In this document: positions 4,605 to 33,409 of the stretch, piece by piece
Layout: the number at the start of each line of letters is the position of its first letter
Numbering within the stretch: position 1 is the first letter of the stretch
DNA from: an uncultured Oxalobacter sp.
GTDB lineage: Bacteria > Pseudomonadota > Gammaproteobacteria > Burkholderiales > Burkholderiaceae_D
Length of the DNA: 47,961 nucleotides
NCBI GenBank assembly: GCA_934401755.1
Contig: CAKRSU010000015.1
Coordinates: forward strand, 1 to 47,961
Reading direction: 5' to 3'
Made by a program: the position numbers and the translations under genes
The notes under the pieces: generated by a model
Database searches by the model: none
The model's input: the letters and a program-made list of their open reading frames with translations, nothing else
What the model was told of the DNA's origin: nothing

Positions 4605-5375
4605 ATGAATCTCTTAATTAAAGGAGGGGTAATTTCTCTCATTATTCATCTTTTGATTGGAGGAATGATTGGTATCATCGTCTGGAGTCGTTGTTTCGAT
4701 AGCGATGTTATTGAGATTGATTTAACTCAGGTTGATTGGCATCATGAAGGAATAGGTGGTGGCAAGGAAGGTAAAGGCGTTGAAAGAGCAAATAGCCCTA
4801 TCTTAAATAGCCGACAAGATGTTATAACGACCAAAAGGAAATTAATCGATGAAAAAGTAGCGGTTTCGACCACTAATGATACTCAAATAGCATATCGTAA
4901 ATCTCGGCATACTTCTTTGGAGAGTTTTGATCATTCGGATACGGCTCTTTCTAATGAAAATCAATCTTCTGTAGGATCCTCTGGAAATGGTGTTGGGATG
5001 GCGTCTGGCGCTGGCATTGGATCAGGCGCACAAGGCAATAATGGAAGGGGATCTGGAAATGGAGCCGGAGATGGAGGAGGGACAAAAGGGGGCATCAAGC
5101 ATTATTTAAGTGCTCATTACAATTATATTATTACTCGTATTCAGCAGCATCTTATTTATCCGAATCAAGCACGCATGATGGGAATTTCTGGCAAAGCGAT
5201 TTATAGTTTCGTGATTCATCAAGACGGTAGTATTGATGCGCTTACGCTGATTAAAAGTGCCGGTTTAAGCGCTTTGGATGAAGCGGGAATGAGAGCAATT
5301 CGTCGTGCAAGTCCTTTTCCTTCTCCGCCAGCTGCTGCTCGTATTAAAATTCCCATTGTTTTTTCGCTGCATTAA
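4605..5375 (+). CDS. tonB: TonB energy-transducing protein with a Gly-rich linker
   Basis: TonB spans the periplasm and passes proton-motive energy to TonB-dependent outer-membrane receptors for iron, haem or vitamin B12. The 256-residue product has an N-terminal signal-anchor helix (about 5-28), a long hydrophilic linker, and a C-terminal TonB domain (about 165-256). The domain shows the typical start YPNQARMMGISGKA and the core VIHQDGSIDALTLIKSAG. The linker is unusual: instead of Pro-Glu/Pro-Lys repeats it is Gly/Ser/Asn-rich (about residues 125-165, GSGAQGNNGRGSGNG). No receptor gene is present in the window. Confidence 0.92.
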   Translation: MNLLIKGGVISLIIHLLIGGMIGIIVWSRCFDSDVIEIDLTQVDWHHEGIGGGKEGKGVERANSPILNSRQDVITTKRKLIDEKVAVSTTNDTQIAYRKSRHTSLESFDHSDTALSNENQSSVGSSGNGVGMASGAGIGSGAQGNNGRGSGNGAGDGGGTKGGIKHYLSAHYNYIITRIQQHLIYPNQARMMGISGKAIYSFVIHQDGSIDALTLIKSAGLSALDEAGMRAIRRASPFPSPPAAARIKIPIVFSLH

Positions 5376-11241: not shown

Positions 11242-12210
11242 TTATTTTTTTGATACTTTATTTTCAAGAATTGATTCTTTGCATTCAAAAAGCATTTCAA
11301 CGTGCGCAATAGCGTGATCGCCTGGAATACCATGAGTGATACTTGAAAGAATGAAATTAGATCCTGTACTGTAGGCGGCTTTAAGAACGTCATATGGTGT
11401 TGGAGATGTTTCTTTAAAGAGACTAGCCGGGACTAAGTCTGGACGTTTTCCGCCAATCATTGCGGTTCCAATAGGATTCGTCCCGATCAGTTCGCCTTCA
11501 AAGCAAGCAATGAGAAGATGTCGACAAGCTGTGACACCTGTGATCCCGAAAAGATTTTTTCCACAAACAGGACAGTGCCAATGAGGCGTTTTAGTATATG
11601 CCCATTTTGTACAGATAATTTGCTTTTTGCTTCCATCTTCAAAAACAGGCTCTTCTAAAGGCGCTGTTTTGCTTTGTTGATCGTCTGTAATATCGCCTGA
11701 AAGTTGAGTTCGCCAAGCAATGGCATAGCGGTCAACGAGATTAGTACTGTGTTTTATATGAGTATCTTGTACGCAATCGTCTTCAGACCAATTTTTGGGT
11801 AAAGGAAGAATTCCCGATATATAAAGGACAATTTGTTCAACAATGGAATAAGTGGTTGCCATTTCTGTTTCCATGTCTTCAATTTCGAAGTCAATTGGAA
11901 GCGAGGTGGTCCACTGATTTCCGTGCTGCATTTTGGCTAGTTCAAGCTTGCGCGTACAGATATATTCAAGTAGTCGCAGATGTTCGAGCATATCATTGGA
12001 ATTCCATGTATTGCGATTATTACAATAATGATTATTCCAATCACATAGAAATGTGCGAAGATCAGAAACAATGAATGTGTGTGATTGTAGGATTTCCCAA
12101 TTGCTGTGCCATTCACAAAGCATGCTGACAATATGATGCATGGCGACATTAGCTGCATTTTCAAGGTTAGGGGCGTTGTCAATATCTTCCATTTTTGTTT
12201 TTTGATCCAT
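11242..12210 (-). CDS. Uncharacterised protein with a zinc-ribbon-like Cys/His cluster
   Basis: I do not recognise this 322-residue protein. The N-terminal two thirds are helical and rich in Trp, Asn and His. A compact cluster near the C-terminus, HWHCPVCGKNLFG then TACRHLL, gives CxxC plus C-x-H and looks like a metal-binding knuckle. The last 80 residues are mixed, with several Gly/Pro turns. There is no signal peptide or membrane segment. It follows the HAD nucleotidase gene by 15 bases on the same strand, so the two probably form an operon controlled from the region shared with the divergent S24-type repressor. Such genes are common in prophage and accessory blocks, but no phage structural gene is present. 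Confidence 0.7.
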   Translation of the reverse strand: MDQKTKMEDIDNAPNLENAANVAMHHIVSMLCEWHSNWEILQSHTFIVSDLRTFLCDWNNHYCNNRNTWNSNDMLEHLRLLEYICTRKLELAKMQHGNQWTTSLPIDFEIEDMETEMATTYSIVEQIVLYISGILPLPKNWSEDDCVQDTHIKHSTNLVDRYAIAWRTQLSGDITDDQQSKTAPLEEPVFEDGSKKQIICTKWAYTKTPHWHCPVCGKNLFGITGVTACRHLLIACFEGELIGTNPIGTAMIGGKRPDLVPASLFKETSPTPYDVLKAAYSTGSNFILSSITHGIPGDHAIAHVEMLFECKESILENKVSKK

Positions 12211-12225
12211 TCATTTTGCACAGGT

Positions 12226-12726
12226 CTATAAGATACCGCGTTCTCTGAGTTCTGCCATGACCTGCGTCAGATTTTTGCAAAGGATACCGATTCCTCCTGC
12301 CAAATGCCATTCAGCGATATTACTGGGACTATCGTCAATGAGAATATCATTAGTGTTTGTACAGTAATATTGTTTATGAGCCGTTTGAACGACAATGTTA
12401 ATTGTGATTGTTTTTGAAAGAGTGCGTCTAACCCAAGCGATTTTATCGTCATGTGATGTTGGCATATTGCGTTTTGGTTTAGGCAATGCCGTAAGAATCT
12501 CACAGCGAGGACCATATTTTTGGTAAAGCTGATCAAAAAGATCTTTGGCCCCGCTGATTATGTCGAGGGTGTCAAAGTAATGTGGCACTTTATTTAGAAT
12601 ATGCCACATCGCGTCATTGTCTGGAATAGCAATCCCTGTTAATTCTTTTGATCGAGTCCAGAAATCGGCCATAACACCATCAAGATCAATGAAGATTTTT
12701 CCTGTGTGAATGGAAGGCGTAACCAT
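12226..12726 (-). CDS. HAD-family 5'(3')-deoxyribonucleotidase-like phosphatase
   Basis: This 166-residue cytosolic HAD phosphatase is of the NT5C (deoxyribonucleotidase) type, which dephosphorylates nucleoside monophosphates. Motif I is FIDLDGVMADF (nucleophile Asp14, acid/base Asp16), motif II is the Thr in LTALP (Thr79), and motif IV is ILIDDSPSNI (Asp131, Asp132). The short cap after DGVMADF fits this subfamily. It is the first gene of a two-gene operon with the zinc-ribbon protein and is divergent from the repressor gene. Similar small nucleotidases are often carried by phages and accessory islands, which fits the surroundings. Confidence 0.83.
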   Translation of the reverse strand: MVTPSIHTGKIFIDLDGVMADFWTRSKELTGIAIPDNDAMWHILNKVPHYFDTLDIISGAKDLFDQLYQKYGPRCEILTALPKPKRNMPTSHDDKIAWVRRTLSKTITINIVVQTAHKQYYCTNTNDILIDDSPSNIAEWHLAGGIGILCKNLTQVMAELRERGIL

Positions 12727-12982
12727 GTTTTATTTTTTCTTTTCAAGAATCCAGCCTTTAAGTATATAGCGACGTTTTATATAGGAACAGAAAAATATGA
12801 CATATTGTTTAAGCGTGTTAAAAAATTTATATCATGTAAATTCGAATCAAGTATTAAATTGTAAGGTATTTTAGATAAATTTATTCCAAATTAACATAAT
12901 TTAGCCGCAACTTCTATTTCTTTGTGCTAGGCAATACGGTAGTATGATTAATGGATTTTTTTTGTTCTAGATGGGAGACAAA

Positions 12983-13828
12983 GTGACCGACAAAATTCAA
13001 GATCCCAATGTAGAAATTATTTCTGATGAAACGGAAAAGCAGCCATCTAATTGGTCGCTATTAGAATCTGAAGTGATGCCTTTGCCATTACAGGATATGG
13101 CTTTAAAGGAAGAAAAGCGAGAGCAAAAAGAGGATAGTAGTTATGACTTTACCCTTTTGACAGGGCGTTTGAGAGCTGCAATGTCAAAATTGGGTATAAC
13201 ACAAGCACAATTAGCGCGTGCTTGTAATGTAAAGCCTCCCAGTGTTAATGGATGGCTTAATGGTAAAGCAAAATACTTAAAAGGTAAGAATCTATTATTA
13301 GCGGCTAAAGCGCTTAATGTTTCTCAAGAATGGCTAGCGACAGGAAAAGGCGCAATGATGCCTTATGAGGATGCATTTACGGCTGTTCCGAATTTACCGT
13401 CAAATGAGTTTATTCAAGTCCCCGTGCTAAATACTCGTCAATCGGTAATGGATGATCATTTTGAGGAACATTTATTTGAGGAAAAAGTTGTATTTCGTAA
13501 AGCTGATTTAGTGTCGCTCAATGTGCAGAGTCAAAATGCTCGTGTGTTGTTGGTTCATGATAATGGGATGCTGCCGACATTACAGATGAATTGTTCTGTA
13601 TTAATTGATGTTGCCGATACAATATTGCAGGACACGAAAGTTTATGCGGTATTTTATGACGGACATTTATTTTTTCGGCGTTTAATATATGATTTCAATG
13701 TTGTGGCAGGTCAACGTACATGGGTAATGCGTTGTGATAATCCTGATCGATTACAATATCCTGACCGACTTTTGCCACCCGATGTGACGATATTGGGACG
13801 TGCTGTTTGGTTTACGGGATTTCTTTAA
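12983..13828 (+). CDS. XRE/S24-type repressor with degenerate peptidase active site
   Basis: A CI/LexA-like transcriptional repressor. I prefer GTG 12983 as start because GGGAG sits five bases before it; ATG 12971, in the same frame, has no ribosome site. Residue numbers here count from 12971. An acidic leader of about 58 residues comes first, then an HTH (about 62-125, ITQAQLARACNVKPPSVNGW), then an S24 peptidase-fold domain (about 145-285). The usual self-cleavage serine (consensus GDSMEPT) is replaced: the sequence reads HDNGMLPT, with Gly199 at the Ser position. The catalytic Lys (consensus VKRL) reads FFRRL, with Arg236. It should therefore dimerise but not self-cleave. It may control the divergent nucleotidase operon. 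Confidence 0.85.
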   Translation: MTDKIQDPNVEIISDETEKQPSNWSLLESEVMPLPLQDMALKEEKREQKEDSSYDFTLLTGRLRAAMSKLGITQAQLARACNVKPPSVNGWLNGKAKYLKGKNLLLAAKALNVSQEWLATGKGAMMPYEDAFTAVPNLPSNEFIQVPVLNTRQSVMDDHFEEHLFEEKVVFRKADLVSLNVQSQNARVLLVHDNGMLPTLQMNCSVLIDVADTILQDTKVYAVFYDGHLFFRRLIYDFNVVAGQRTWVMRCDNPDRLQYPDRLLPPDVTILGRAVWFTGFL

Positions 13829-14035
13829 AAGATGTGTCAATTAAGATACCCATAAAGTTTTAATCGGAATGCAAGGGTATTATGATTTTGCGAAAAAATT
13901 GAAAATACTGACACAGTTTTTTATAGGGTTGAGCGATCTTTTAAAGGTTTTCTCTCTGCTAGAATGGATACTGGTGATATTCTTGCTGAGTTTTTATCAT
14001 TTTAGAGTTCGTTTTATTGTGGGGGAGGTAATATT

Positions 14036-14344
14036 ATGGACATTGGCAATGCGATCAAAACTTGTCGTATTCGTAAGGGATTGTCCCAGACAAAACTTGC
14101 AGAGCTTGCTGATTGTTCTGTTTCATATCTTTCCTTGATTGAGCATAATCATCGAGATGTCACATTGTCGACATTGCGTCGGATTTGTCTTGCTTTAAAT
14201 ATTCCAATGGGGATTTTACTTTTTTTGGGGACTTCTCAAGAGGAAATGGGGGCTATTTCGAAAGAGCTTGAATCCGAACTTGCAAAGAATATATTGTCTC
14301 TTTTAAATACGCCGCCAGCGGCTTCGAAAGTGCAACTTGTATAA
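14036..14344 (+). CDS. Small XRE-family HTH regulator
   Basis: This 102-residue DNA-binding protein has an N-terminal XRE helix-turn-helix (about 4-60: LSQTKLAELADCSVSYLSLIEHN) and a short C-terminal helical tail likely used for dimerisation. GGGGGAGG lies nine bases before the ATG, a very strong ribosome site. It follows the S24-type repressor gene by 207 bp and has its own terminator, so it is probably monocistronic. Its targets are unknown. It may be autoregulatory or part of the same accessory block. Confidence 0.88.
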   Translation: MDIGNAIKTCRIRKGLSQTKLAELADCSVSYLSLIEHNHRDVTLSTLRRICLALNIPMGILLFLGTSQEEMGAISKELESELAKNILSLLNTPPAASKVQLV

Positions 14345-14375
14345 GTCATACGCCAATATATGAGTTTTTATCGTT

Positions 14376-14404
14376 ATGCCGAACGAGTTAGTTCGGCATT
14401 TTTA
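14376..14404 (+). terminator. Rho-independent terminator after the small XRE gene
   Basis: A perfect 9-bp stem, ATGCCGAAC (14376-14384) and GTTCGGCAT (14391-14399), with a 6-base loop is followed by a T run. It lies about 30 bases after the XRE stop. Confidence 0.88.
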
Positions 14405-14594
14405 TTAGATTGTTGCTGTTTTTCAAGAAAAATTCGAATCATATCGAATAATCAAATTTTTGATGCTGAAGATAAAAATTTCTTGAGAATTTAACTATAA
14501 ATAGAAACTTTATTGGGAAAATTTATTGTTCGGTTGTTTGTCATTTTTAGCCGTTTTACCATAAACTACGTTTTTTGTTTGATAGATACCCGTT

Positions 14595-15143
14595 ATGGAA
14601 AACAAAGACCAATCTGAAACTGTGATGCGTGAAGCACAAGAGATTAATAAGTTGTTAACTCAAAAACTCAATGCGAGCAAAGTCAGTTCTGATGAGGAAT
14701 TTAAAACGTTACTACATGCGGTAACGGTACCGATGATGACGCTAACGGCAAAATTGTCAGGGGAATCTGAAGTATTTGTGCAAGATGTTTGCGATGAGGT
14801 TTTTAAGGCAATGACAGGCAAAGCTCCTAGTCGTGATGATTTAGGCAGAATCAAGAGTACTCATTCAGGGGAACCAACCGATGCAACGACCTTATTTGAG
14901 TCAACAATGAGCGATCCAGATATGGTGAAGGGCGCTGAAATAGCAAATTATGCATTAGCCGCTGCAATGCAGCAAATGGCCGATACGCATTGGGGACGCC
15001 CGGTTATTCGGGCGCGTATTATGGTGATGGTCATTGTTGGACTTTTAAATCGTATTGCTGTCGAAGCAACCTATCCTCTTGATCATTTTGATACAGTTCG
15101 TGATGCAATGAAGAATATTGAGCAAAATATGGGGTGGTTTTAA
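14595..15143 (+). CDS. Hypothetical protein
   Basis: I do not recognise this 182-residue, mainly helical, acidic protein. It has no signal peptide. One moderately hydrophobic Met-rich stretch near residues 140-155 (RARIMVMVIVGLLNRIAV) looks like a buried helix rather than a membrane anchor. The start ATG has no strong ribosome site. It lies alone between the small XRE gene with its terminator and the first Fur-box unit. Confidence 0.65.
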   Translation: MENKDQSETVMREAQEINKLLTQKLNASKVSSDEEFKTLLHAVTVPMMTLTAKLSGESEVFVQDVCDEVFKAMTGKAPSRDDLGRIKSTHSGEPTDATTLFESTMSDPDMVKGAEIANYALAAAMQQMADTHWGRPVIRARIMVMVIVGLLNRIAVEATYPLDHFDTVRDAMKNIEQNMGWF

Positions 15144-15255
15144 TCGTATCTGTGTTTTTCTCAAGAATCGACGGTTGCGTTTCATGCGAGTTCGTCTATT
15201 TGTCGCAAAGTTGGTTTTATTTTTCTATTAAGTGAGCTGTTAGTTTTTTACTAAA

Positions 15256-15270
15256 TGATAATAATTATCA
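15256..15270. promoter_or_regulatory. Fur box 1 (perfect 7-1-7 palindrome)
   Basis: TGATAATAATTATCA is an exact TGATAAT-A-ATTATCA inverted repeat, matching the 7-1-7 form of the Fur consensus. It sits directly before a promoter-like pair, TTGCGT (15272-15277) and TAAAAT (15296-15301) with an 18-base spacer, so bound Fur would block the transcript that follows. Confidence 0.8.
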
Positions 15271-15307
15271 CTTGCGTTTAAAAGAAAAAGAAGTGTAAAA
15301 TAATTTT

Positions 15308-15413
15308 TGTAGGCTTAAGAGACATTGATGCAGAAAGTCTCCTCTGATCAATGTAAGTCTGCGTTATGCCAGTCTTTTTACCTCGCCCGTTGAATGATCA
15401 GCGGGTTTTTTTT
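15308..15413 (+). ncRNA. Candidate Fur-regulated small RNA 1 (RyhB/PrrF-like in organisation)
   Basis: The predicted start is about seven bases after the -10 TAAAAT, and the end is an intrinsic terminator: CCCGTTGA (15386-15393), loop ATGA, TCAGCGGG (15398-15405), then eight T. This gives an RNA of about 106 bases. No ORF is present. Inside, ACATTGAT (15322-15329) can pair with ATCAATGT (15347-15354), giving a first hairpin. The layout of Fur box, promoter, about 100 untranslated bases and terminator is that of iron-sparing sRNAs such as RyhB or PrrF. Primary sequence similarity to those RNAs is not evident to me, so the name is by organisation only. Confidence 0.62.
15386..15413 (+). terminator. 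Intrinsic terminator of candidate sRNA 1
   Basis: An 8-bp stem (one G-T pair) with tetraloop ATGA is followed by eight T. It is too far (about 240 bases) from the preceding CDS to be its obvious terminator. Confidence 0.88.
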
Positions 15414-15436
15414 GTTTGAAATGGTTCTATAAATAT

Positions 15437-15457
15437 GTAAACGAGAATCATTTGCAT
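15437..15457. promoter_or_regulatory. Fur box 2 overlapping a -35 element
   Basis: CGAGAATCATTTGCA (15442-15456) within 15437-15455 matches 13 of 19 positions of the GATAATGATAATCATTATC Fur consensus. It overlaps TTGCAT (15452-15457), which is spaced 16 bases from a perfect TATAAT (15474-15479). Repression by Fur with iron is the expected outcome. Confidence 0.7.
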
Positions 15458-15479
15458 TTAATAAAAGTTAAGGTATAAT
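15452..15479 (+). promoter_or_regulatory. Sigma-70 promoter of candidate sRNA 2
   Basis: TTGCAT, a 16-base spacer and a perfect TATAAT. Transcription would start near 15486. No ORF with a ribosome site follows before the terminator at 15565-15598. Confidence 0.7.
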
Positions 15480-15485
15480 CTCTTT

Positions 15486-15598
15486 TCAGAAGATTGAAGA
15501 AAACTCGGTGTTTTTTTCGCCTCTAAGATCGGGTTTTATTAATCTTTGGTTGCCCGCAAATTGAACGCCCAATGTTAGAACGCATTGGGCGTTTTTTT
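15486..15598 (+). ncRNA. Candidate Fur-regulated small RNA 2
   Basis: An RNA of about 113 bases is predicted between the promoter at 15452-15479 and the strong terminator at 15565-15598. It is U-rich and contains no credible ORF. It lies 73 bases after the end of candidate sRNA 1 on the same strand, so two separately terminated, separately Fur-controlled units stand in tandem, as PrrF1 and PrrF2 do in Pseudomonas. The two RNAs do not look alike in sequence, so they may have distinct targets rather than being duplicates. Confidence 0.6.
15565..15598 (+). terminator. Intrinsic terminator of candidate sRNA 2
   Basis: A perfect 10-bp stem, ACGCCCAATG (15565-15574) and CATTGGGCGT (15583-15592), has an 8-base loop and a seven-T tail. 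Confidence 0.9.
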
Positions 15599-15676
15599 AT
15601 ATTGTTTTTATTCTATAAAATTTTTGAAAAGTTAATTGCGTTTTATCTATTCATCTTCATTTTGCCAATACTCTAG

Positions 15677-16324
15677 CTATTCTTTGATGGTGAGCATTTC
15701 GTCTAAAGGGACTCGAAGGGAACGATAATTGTTAATAGGATGACTAGATCGATAGCCGAGTCCAATTCCGATAGCAATTAGTTCATCTTCAGGAATACCT
15801 AAATATTGACGGATCATGTCAGGAAATTTTACAAATTCATAAGCGGGAATGGAATCAATTCCTTTATTAGCGGCGCTTAGCATCAGTGTTTGTTCAAATC
15901 CTCCCATATCCATAATAGCCCATTCGGGAGAATTTTTAGGGATTGTAATGTAGATCGCTGCACTACAGTGATAAAGATTTTCTTGTGTTTTATAAAATTC
16001 AGAGAAATCTTCTTTTACATAATTGCCAAGGTGCTTTGTTAATGCTTGCATATTTTTAAAAGGATAAGCACCGAATGATTCTCGTGGAACACGGGTAAAG
16101 TCAGAATAGCCTTTTTCGCCTGATTGTACTTTAATCAGATGATTTTGTTTGATGGTCTCTAGTGTTTTGCCTGTTGCAATGTAAACTTTCCATGGTTGGG
16201 AATTAACCCAAGAGGGCGCCCATTGAGCTTCTGCAACAATTGCTTTTAATGTATCTTTAGGAATTGGCAGTCCATTAAAATCTCGAATGGATCGACGTTT
16301 TTTGATAACCTGGCTAAATTCCAT
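15677..16324 (-). CDS. Nitroreductase-family FMN oxidoreductase
   Basis: This 215-residue cytoplasmic flavoenzyme reduces nitro compounds, quinones or similar acceptors with NAD(P)H and works as a dimer. The FMN-phosphate motif KRRSIRDF (residues 8-15), the following APSWVNSQPW segment, and the C-terminal IAIGIGLGY block are typical of the family. The length is normal. The physiological substrate is unknown. It converges with candidate sRNA 2, whose terminator lies 79 bases past its stop. Confidence 0.88.
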   Translation of the reverse strand: MEFSQVIKKRRSIRDFNGLPIPKDTLKAIVAEAQWAPSWVNSQPWKVYIATGKTLETIKQNHLIKVQSGEKGYSDFTRVPRESFGAYPFKNMQALTKHLGNYVKEDFSEFYKTQENLYHCSAAIYITIPKNSPEWAIMDMGGFEQTLMLSAANKGIDSIPAYEFVKFPDMIRQYLGIPEDELIAIGIGLGYRSSHPINNYRSLRVPLDEMLTIKE

Positions 16325-31439: not shown

Positions 31440-33409
31440 ATGAATCGGATATTCAAAATCATCTTTAATAAAACACTTGGTCAATACACCGCAGTTAGCG
31501 AATTAGCACGAACAGCCGGCAAAAAACGACAAATATCAATCATTAAAAAAATTGTTCCAGTTCTAGGCATTGGAACATTACTAATGACTGCAATACCGTC
31601 CTCTGCAGCAGTAAACAACTTTTGGAATGACTATACGATACAGCACTAACTACGACTAATAATGGTTATGAATCTCGTACAAATTCAAGAACAGGAGAAA
31701 CAAGCTTAACCATAAAACAAGAGAATGCTGCTGGTGTAAAAACCGTTATTGCTCATCCAAATGCAAGCGGATCATATCTTCCGGGGACAAGCGATTCTAG
31801 TCTTATTCTTTATGAACAAGAGAAGGGCTCTAATACATTTGTTGGCAAAATGACAGTAGGTTCAGACGTTTACACCATAACTGCGACATATGATGAAAAC
31901 TCTGAATCTAACAACAAATGGAATATTACCTGTACTAACAAAGATGGCAAAGACTCTGGACTTGATATAAGTACAAAAAATATGCAAATTGAGGAATTAC
32001 AAGATATTGAATATTCATCAGGAAAGATAGAAAAAGTTGAATCTGGCTCAAAAGATCAGCAAGGATATTTCCAGACAAACACAGTAACAAAAACAGGACA
32101 AGTTACAGGAAAAGAAGAGGAATCTTCCACAAGAACAAGAATTGGTGATGTTGTTAAAGCTTCAACTTCAAAAGACGGAAAAACACTAACTGTTTCTGTT
32201 AATGGTGAACGTGCATCACTAACAGATACTGACACCCAATACGAACTCAAGCAAAGTACAGTTGCGACAGAGAATAAAACCACCATTTCCTTAGTTGATT
32301 CTTCTAATGGAGAAACTGTATCATCAGCATCAATAAAAGGAGACGACACAGTAACAATTGAGAATGATGGTAAAGGAAAAGATGGTGGTGCAATAATCTC
32401 CGTAAAAGACACTTACTATCAAACAGATGATGGAAAAGCAAAAGTTAAACCAGGACAAACTCTTGGCATCAAGGGTGGATCAAACATCAGTACATCCGTT
32501 GAAAATGGTGAAATCAAAGTGGGACTAAAAGACGATATTAATGTTAAAAGCATTACCGCTGCAGATGGAAAAGTTCGAATCGATAGAGATGGAACCGTTC
32601 GTATTGGTGGTAGTGGCAATAATGCAAATACCACCTTGTATGAAGATGGCACCATTACTAGCAAAGTTGGAGATACCACATTAATTGTTGGTAAAGATCG
32701 TGTCTCCATGGGAAATGGTAATAACCAAGTTGTCGTAACCAAAGACGGTGTTGGCATTGCTGGTAATACAGGAGTTAACGGTAACCTAGGTGTTAGTGGA
32801 AGCGTTGGTGTTGGCGGAAATCTAGCGGTTGCAGGAGACATTGGTGCTACAAACATCACAGCATCTGAAACGGTAAGTGCTAAAAACATAACCGCTTCTG
32901 AAAACGTTAATGCGAAAAACATCAATGCCTCAGAAAGCGTAAATGTTGGAAACACTTCTGTTAAAAGCGAAGGCATCACCATTAAAGGCAACAAAGACAA
33001 TAATTCATCCATCGTCTTTACCCAAGACAAAATTGACATGGGTAACCGACAAATCCACGGCGTAGCTGCTGGTACAGCAGATACCGATGCTGTTAACTTC
33101 GCTCAATTGAAAGCGACCGAAGCCAACTTCAACCAGAAATTGGGCAACATGGACAAACACATCAATCGAGTTGAAGACAATGCCTATGCCGGTGTTGCAA
33201 TGGCATTAGCAACAGCTGGTTTACCTCAGGCCTGGCAGCCAGGTAAGAGCATGATTGCAGCTGCTGCCGGTACCTACATGGGAGAACAAGGCTATGCAAT
33301 CGGCTTCTCTCATAACACTGAAAACGGTAAATGGACCTTAAAAGCCACCGCTTCTGGCAATAGCCAAGGTCACTTTGGTGGAACCGTTGGTGCTGGTTAC
33401 ATGTGGTAA
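31440..33409 (+). pseudogene. YadA-type trimeric autotransporter adhesin, frameshifted after the signal peptide
   Basis: Frame one from ATG 31440 encodes an extended signal peptide (MNRIFKIIFNKTLGQ..., ESPR type, with hydrophobic core VLGIGTLLMTAIPSSAA) and stops at TAA 31647-31649. A second frame is open from 31631 to 33409 and continues without break (YDTALTTTNNGYES...). One base lost near 31630-31640 would explain this. The passenger has a beta-helix-like run (GNLGVSGSVGVGGNLAV), three 11-residue repeats, a neck (NRQIHGVAAGTADTDAVNF) and an intact YadA anchor ending GGTVGAGYMW. If joined, about 656 residues: a trimeric outer-membrane adhesin. GAAAGGG precedes the start. Confidence 0.87.
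32852..32950 (+). repeat. Three tandem 33-bp (11-codon) repeats in the autotransporter stalk
   Basis: Units at 32852-32884, 32885-32917 and 32918-32950 encode NITASETVSAK, NITASENVNAK and NINASESVNVG. This is a period seen in coiled-coil or beta-helix stalks of YadA-like adhesins. DNA identity between units is high but not perfect. Confidence 0.8.

Follow-up and report, generated by a model that had tools for sequence, protein, structure and literature searches.

Iron-sparing small RNAs of unrelated sequence occur in several groups of bacteria. In enterobacteria, RyhB (presumably Rfam entry RF00057) has a Fur box at its own promoter and ends at an intrinsic terminator; NrrF of Neisseria is a betaproteobacterial, Fur-controlled small RNA; and PrrH of Pseudomonas is a joint read-through RNA. 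RyhB targets sodB, sdhD, and iscS at sites overlapping the Shine-Dalgarno sequence and pairs with sodB through its loop II (PMC3650055); PrrF of Pseudomonas was found by its Fur box and terminator and is tandem in P. aeruginosa, where PrrF1 and PrrF2 are 95% identical (PMC4211561); and NrrF is named iron-responsive and HrrF of Haemophilus is described as conserved in the Pasteurellaceae (PMC4144887). Within the order Burkholderiales, BrrF of Burkholderia is a low-iron small RNA that acts on sodB, fumA, acnA, sdhA, sdhC, and katB; it is released by cleavage from the 3′ end of hemP mRNA, with no dedicated Fur box (PMC7377471). A limited literature search on Oxalobacter, small RNA, and iron/Fur found no earlier account of an iron-linked small RNA in Oxalobacter.

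We analyzed a 47,961-nt stretch of DNA from an uncultured Oxalobacter sp., referred to here in its entirety as the window. A first-pass annotation had predicted two iron-responsive small RNAs from a pair of successive units that lack ORFs, each equipped with a Fur box, a promoter, and a terminator. Both units are present at 15256–15598, each with a promoter and a strong terminator, as borne out by the sequence itself and by promoter and terminator scans, and no + strand ORF of at least 40 aa (ATG, GTG, or TTG start) lies within 15144–15676. The features of the locus are as follows.

15256–15270, no strand assigned: Fur box 1, TGATAAT-A-ATTATCA, directly before the −35 of unit 1 and aligned in three relatives.
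15272–15301, + strand: predicted unit 1 promoter, with −35-like TTGCGT at 15272–15277 and −10 TAAAAT at 15296–15301, read from the sequence; the −10 aligns with relatives.
15309–15413, + strand: predicted unit 1 RNA, ~105 nt, with a probable start at 15308–15309; conserved in the related loci L001, L002, and L013.
15309–15362, + strand: unit 1 5′ domain, a stem (GUAGGC/GUCUGC) around a hairpin with a loop that shows GUCUCC, from a consensus fold of four sequences.
15357–15383, + strand: 27-nt conserved stretch of unit 1 (the linker), GUCUGCGUUAUGCCAGUCUUUUUACCU, with a U run; predicted to pair with targets and to be single-stranded from ~15363.
15385–15413, + strand: unit 1 intrinsic terminator, from terminator scan, fold, and consensus fold.
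15439–15459, no strand assigned: Fur box 2, AAACGAGAATCATTTGCATTT, which overlaps the −35 of unit 2 and aligns with AAATAAGAATCATTTGCAAAT in L001.
15451–15479, + strand: predicted unit 2 promoter, TTTGCA-17-TATAAT, with −35 at 15451–15456 and −10 at 15474–15479.
15486–15600, + strand: predicted unit 2 RNA, ~115 nt from its likely start, a long hairpin and a terminator at 15563–15594.
15677–16324, − strand: nitroreductase-family protein (Pfam PF00881).

We consider it very likely that unit 1 is a Fur-repressed, iron-sparing small RNA that acts in trans. When iron is low, Fur would leave the box at 15256–15270 and an RNA of ~105 nt would be made. Its conserved linker, UUAUGCCAGUCUUUUUACC, would then pair, probably with Hfq, with sites that cover the Shine-Dalgarno sequence and start codon of sodB, lie just upstream of iscS behind iscR, or lie just before the AUG of a fumarase gene. 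In the manner of RyhB, pairing would block translation and hasten decay, and so lower products that use iron or build Fe-S clusters; by analogy with the RyhB sites, unit 1 is expected to keep sodB, iscS, and fumA from being translated when iron is scarce. The architecture, conservation, structure, and complementarity behind this model were computed; transcription, Fur binding, a need for Hfq, and the direction of regulation are what we infer from them.

Box 1 (TGATAATAATTATCA) had been described as a perfect TGATAAT-A-ATTATCA, and it matches the 7-1-7 consensus TGATAATNATTATCA with 0 mismatches, the sole exact match in the window. Exact matches to TGATAATNATTATCA are rare by chance, arising in 1 of 1,500 dinucleotide shuffles of the whole window and in 0 of 20,000 shuffles of 15144–15676. 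The corresponding boxes of the relatives, TAAGAATAATTCTTA, TAAGAATAATTATTG, and TGAAAATGATTCTTA, have 3–4 mismatches to this consensus and are less perfect than that of the window. We corrected the −10 element assigned earlier to unit 1: the homologous −10 is TAAAAT at 15296–15301, which aligns with TAGAAT of three relatives and fits a start near 15308–15309. Thus, by sequence, unit 1 has its own predicted promoter under a Fur-type box. The unit 2 box, with core AGAATCATTTGCA at 15444–15456, was correctly said to overlap the −35 of a promoter with a perfect TATAAT. Box 2 alone is no rarity: the window contains a single exact copy of AGAATNATTTGCA, and with two mismatches 17 matches were found compared to 16.8 expected. 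Between 13000 and 18000, the unit 2 promoter scored best of 17 promoter-like sites, a number no different from chance (17.7 in shuffles), and there were 8 terminator-like sites compared to 3.5 expected, with the terminators of unit 1 (15385–15406) and unit 2 (15563–15594) among them.

To see whether these boxes are Fur boxes, a matrix built solely from six boxes of units 1 and 2 was used to scan the regions upstream of 1,472 genes of the related genome G002; these genes came from a home-made caller, which covered ~1.70 of 1.8 Mb and may have some starts wrong. Among distinct sites, rank 2 was the promoter region between the divergent genes tonB and hutX, the latter a ChuX/HutX haem-utilisation gene, and rank 4 belonged to a 4Fe-4S protein gene. 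These genes also came out on top of a plain consensus scan of G002. We do not take as evidence rank 1 (uvrD/porin, names partly by eye), which lies inside a likely mis-called porin start, or rank 3 (a methionine-aminopeptidase-like protein, by eye), a gene with no known link to iron. By eye, the tonB/hutX divergent promoter region of G002 (L123, 14697–14839) has more than one Fur-like box. The window has its own gene for a TonB C-terminal protein (4605–5372); even with up to 3 mismatches allowed, no 7-1-7 Fur-like box turned up around the start of this gene. A Fur-family protein is encoded in 13/13 genomes of the genus and Hfq in 12/13, including all three genomes that carry unit 1 (G001, G002, and G006). 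In each carrier, hfq shares a contig with unit 1 and is ~6–7 kb away from it (G001:C20:22735, G002:C5:65735, and G006:C37:6512).

The window is from a betaproteobacterium nearest to Oxalobacter MAGs: its SMC protein shares 64% and 63% identity with those of the Oxalobacter sp. MAG loci L001 and L002 (7 loci were returned). Its GC content is 37%, compared to 50–54% in these relatives. Synteny with L001 and L002 extends downstream from the nitroreductase gene through carboxypeptidase and SMC genes and beyond, and the nitroreductase (E 1e-30) and unit 1 co-occur in exactly the same 3 of 13 genus genomes. On the upstream side, ORF 14595–15143 matches no Pfam or NCBIfam family. The window genes at 11242–15143 encode an unknown protein of 322 aa, an NT5C-type nucleotidase, an S24/HTH repressor-like protein, and an unknown protein of 182 aa; their G002 homologues are grouped on a separate contig (L125), which places a rearrangement breakpoint between 15143 and unit 1. 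Farther away, at 31850–33406, the window encodes a protein with YadA anchor and stalk domains, of the trimeric autotransporter type. These surroundings bear on the reading that the boxes serve a divergent or unannotated neighbor, or that what we call unit 1 is not a separate gene but the 3′-terminal part of the upstream gene's message. Although the Fur box is symmetric and unit 1 begins ~165 bases after ORF 14595–15143, the gene upstream varies (this ORF in the window; adenylosuccinate synthetase, purA, recognized by eye before unit 1 in L001 and L002), whereas the unit 1 box and −10 stay. We therefore regard such an arrangement as very improbable.

The unit 1 stretch is 78% identical to L001 and 76% identical to L002, and when the L001 stretch served as query against 148 relatives, 4 of them had a match, which added G006; a match in G085 was 31 bases long and was judged to be chance. 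The Fur box, −10, hairpin, linker, and terminator are all traceable in an alignment of four genomes (the window and three relatives), in which 26 of 27 columns of the linker, 21 of 33 of the hairpin, and 13 of 23 of the terminator are invariant. The predicted fold of unit 1 is more stable than that of 200/200 shuffles (z of −3.25 and −4.81 for the two starts tried), and the same holds for unit 2 (z −4.15; 200/200). In the consensus fold, 1 of 26 pairs has changed on both sides and several one-sided changes keep pairing (four sequences), which supports a functional RNA structure in unit 1 modestly but consistently. A covariance search in relatives had been named as a check, and a model built from the window, L001, L002, and L013 (R1) recovers unit 1 from the three carriers among the 13 genomes of the genus, with a Fur-type box, −10, hairpin, and terminator. 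Across 399 genomes sampled from the order, R1 under strict filters returned G001 itself and one doubtful place, a 35-bit match in G337 that by eye has a terminator but no Fur box and that we judged to be chance.

The first-pass annotation had also held that the RNAs do not resemble RyhB or PrrF, and Rfam searches agree. No Rfam family reached its cut-off over the units, the only match in the window being a tRNA. In a lax search of 15200–15650 (E up to 10), all 22 hits were below cut-off, and RyhB and PrrF were absent among them. The best of these hits, STnc240 (29.6 bits, against a cut-off of 55), falls on the terminator of unit 2 and was set aside; NrrF (RF01416) gave a 16-bit match to the opposite strand of unit 2 (E 0.91; cut-off 60).

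We give the least credence to a reading, on which the alignment also bears, in which both units are genes for small peptides under Fur control and not for regulatory RNAs. By eye, a frame runs from an ATG in the linker of unit 1 in all four genomes; however, this ATG has no preceding Shine-Dalgarno sequence, the linker is no more variable at third positions than at the rest, and the frame enters the terminator and shifts in L013. In unit 2, a ribosome site may precede an ATG frame of the L001 sequence, but the unit differs in length between the window and L001 and the frame is not clearly kept (all by eye). The best reading of these results is that unit 1 is a well-supported candidate for a new family of iron-sparing small RNAs in the Oxalobacter lineage.

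If unit 1 acts in this way, then its conserved linker should be complementary to messages for iron-using proteins. The carrier leaders compared were those of the relatives G001, G002, and G006. The sodB leader had been suggested beforehand as a target, and the linker is complementary to it in 3 of 3 carriers, covering the Shine-Dalgarno sequence and AUG at −20.6 (G001), −21.0 (G002), and −17.0 (G006) kcal/mol, with fractions of 0.004, 0, and 0.014, respectively, of 500 shuffles as good; the fraction for each carrier depends on the run and on the region taken, reaching 0.027 for G006. Ranked by raw linker energy near the start codon, sodB is 10th of 1,444 genes in G002. For all 10 non-carriers (nine scored with the G002 linker, plus G010), the best sodB pairing was −7.6 to −11.6 kcal/mol, with 0.21 to 0.83 of shuffles as good. 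The non-carriers have another type of sodB leader, some nearly identical, so the contrast with carriers may reflect one evolutionary event.

Upstream of the iscS start, behind iscR (recognized by eye), the sequence GGCATAAC is kept in 3/3 carriers and is complementary to GUUAUGCC. When the three genomes are aligned, no other run of unchanged columns before the start is as long (8 bases; next longest, 7), and iscR of G006 stops upstream of GGCATAAC, indicating that coding does not explain its conservation in that genome. Per-genome values for iscS over a wider region were 0.20, 0.03, and 0.17. For fumA, a class I Fe-S fumarase gene, GGCATAACG lies just before the AUG in G002 (the one carrier read), and the best duplex has a 10-bp core with distal pairs across an 18-nt target loop. 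In a joint, background-corrected test against 600 shuffled linkers, 0 were as good as the linker for sodB (three genomes), 3 for iscS (three genomes), and 1 for fumA, although the values for iscS and fumA are optimistic because both genes surfaced in scans before testing. This test used the linker end of G001, G002, and the window also for G006, whose own end gives the sodB energy of −17.0. The linker is thus complementary, at the level of predicted pairing, to messages for iron-using proteins near their translation starts.

Aconitase, a further target suggested for unit 1, did not hold up: ~90 of 600 shuffled linkers were as good for acn in three genomes (0.15), and we rejected it. The hairpin loop segment gave values of 0.017–0.03 for acn in G002, 0.27 in G001, and 0.64 in G006. 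Motif searches recognized no sdh or catalase gene in the G002 set (~1.70 of 1.8 Mb). In a blind genome-wide scan of G002, predicted sites at −12 did not exceed those for 12 shuffles (loop, 235 sites compared to 209, SD 48; linker, 150 compared to 135, SD 39). Across 329 G002/G006 gene pairs and 24 shuffles, the linker showed an excess only at weak energies: 108 compared to 78.8 at −8 (1/24 as good), 39 compared to 26.7 at −10 (3/24), and 7 compared to 7.1 at −12 (14/24). The hairpin loop was rejected as the main seed, with no excess over shuffles either genome-wide or in gene pairs.

This lack of a genome-wide excess would be expected if unit 1 were Fur-controlled but had another job, for example acting on porin or uptake genes or as an RNA sponge, and the sodB, iscS, and fumA matches were chance; the conserved anti-Shine-Dalgarno-like loop GUCUCCUCU could, moreover, act on many messages. 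We nonetheless think this unlikely, because 0 of 600 shuffled linkers equaled the four-gene set in G002, sodB was named before any target was scored, and the iscS 8-mer is kept in three genomes. Iron sparing through the linker is our preferred account of unit 1.

Unit 2 is less uniformly conserved. Its Fur box and TATAAT are kept in L001, where the two units are ~600 bases apart with an ORF between them; in L002 the RNA body is recognizable and the stretch with the Fur box and promoter is missing. A covariance model built from the window, L001, and L002 (R2) gave strong matches in G001 and G002 among the 13 genus genomes, with the rest at E 0.0039 or weaker, and gave no match in G006 at E 1. 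We did not count the weaker matches in G003, G005, G008, G012, and G013 (E 0.0039 to 0.92) or two opposite-strand matches over unit 2 itself. A search for the box-2 pattern in G001, G002, and G006 found the G001 unit 2 box alone. The two RNAs had been described as unlike each other, and comparing them by blastn gave no match at E 10; they are not two similar copies of the PrrF kind. The PrrF-like tandem layout proposed for the pair is seen in the window alone, given the ~600 bases and ORF in L001, the missing promoter in L002, and the lack of a match in G006. Of the proposed pair of iron-sparing RNAs, the part concerning unit 1 gains from its conservation and target complementarity, and the part concerning unit 2 is weakened by its poorer conservation.

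Pairing of unit 2 with the sodB, acn, iscS, and fumA leaders was mixed, and the window and L001 sequences disagree. The middle segment of the window unit 2 pairs with the acn leaders of G001 at −24.0 (0/300 shuffles as good) and G002 at −23.7 (0.003), a result picked from 5 segments × 7 leaders, whereas with G001's own unit 2 a fraction of 0.37 of shuffles was as good for acn. The second unit probably encodes another RNA under Fur control in the same lineage, either younger or being lost; it is a plausible though unstable companion of unit 1. A division of labor between two unrelated Fur-controlled RNAs, in which unit 1 would act on sodB, iscS, and fumA through the linker, unit 2 on aconitase, and read-through of terminator 1 would yield a third, joint RNA comparable to PrrH, strikes us as doubtful.

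Compared to the described systems, unit 1 resembles known iron-sparing small RNAs in its predicted layout, matches no Rfam family tested, and differs from BrrF in origin. Like RyhB, it has its own Fur box and terminator and start-region sites on sodB and iscS; unlike RyhB, which pairs with sodB through loop II (PMC3650055), it would use its linker. Units 1 and 2 are mutually dissimilar and are not adjacent in L001, in contrast to PrrF1 and PrrF2 (PMC4211561). BrrF shares the order Burkholderiales with the host of unit 1, but unit 1 has its own box and promoter, and its neighbors are ORF 14595–15143 and the nitroreductase gene. HrrF, set beside unit 1 here by its published description (PMC4144887), is another sequence-unrelated iron-sparing case. 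To the iron-sparing RNAs of these groups, unit 1 would add a candidate from the Oxalobacter lineage for which the pairing region is specified and three targets can be put to the test.
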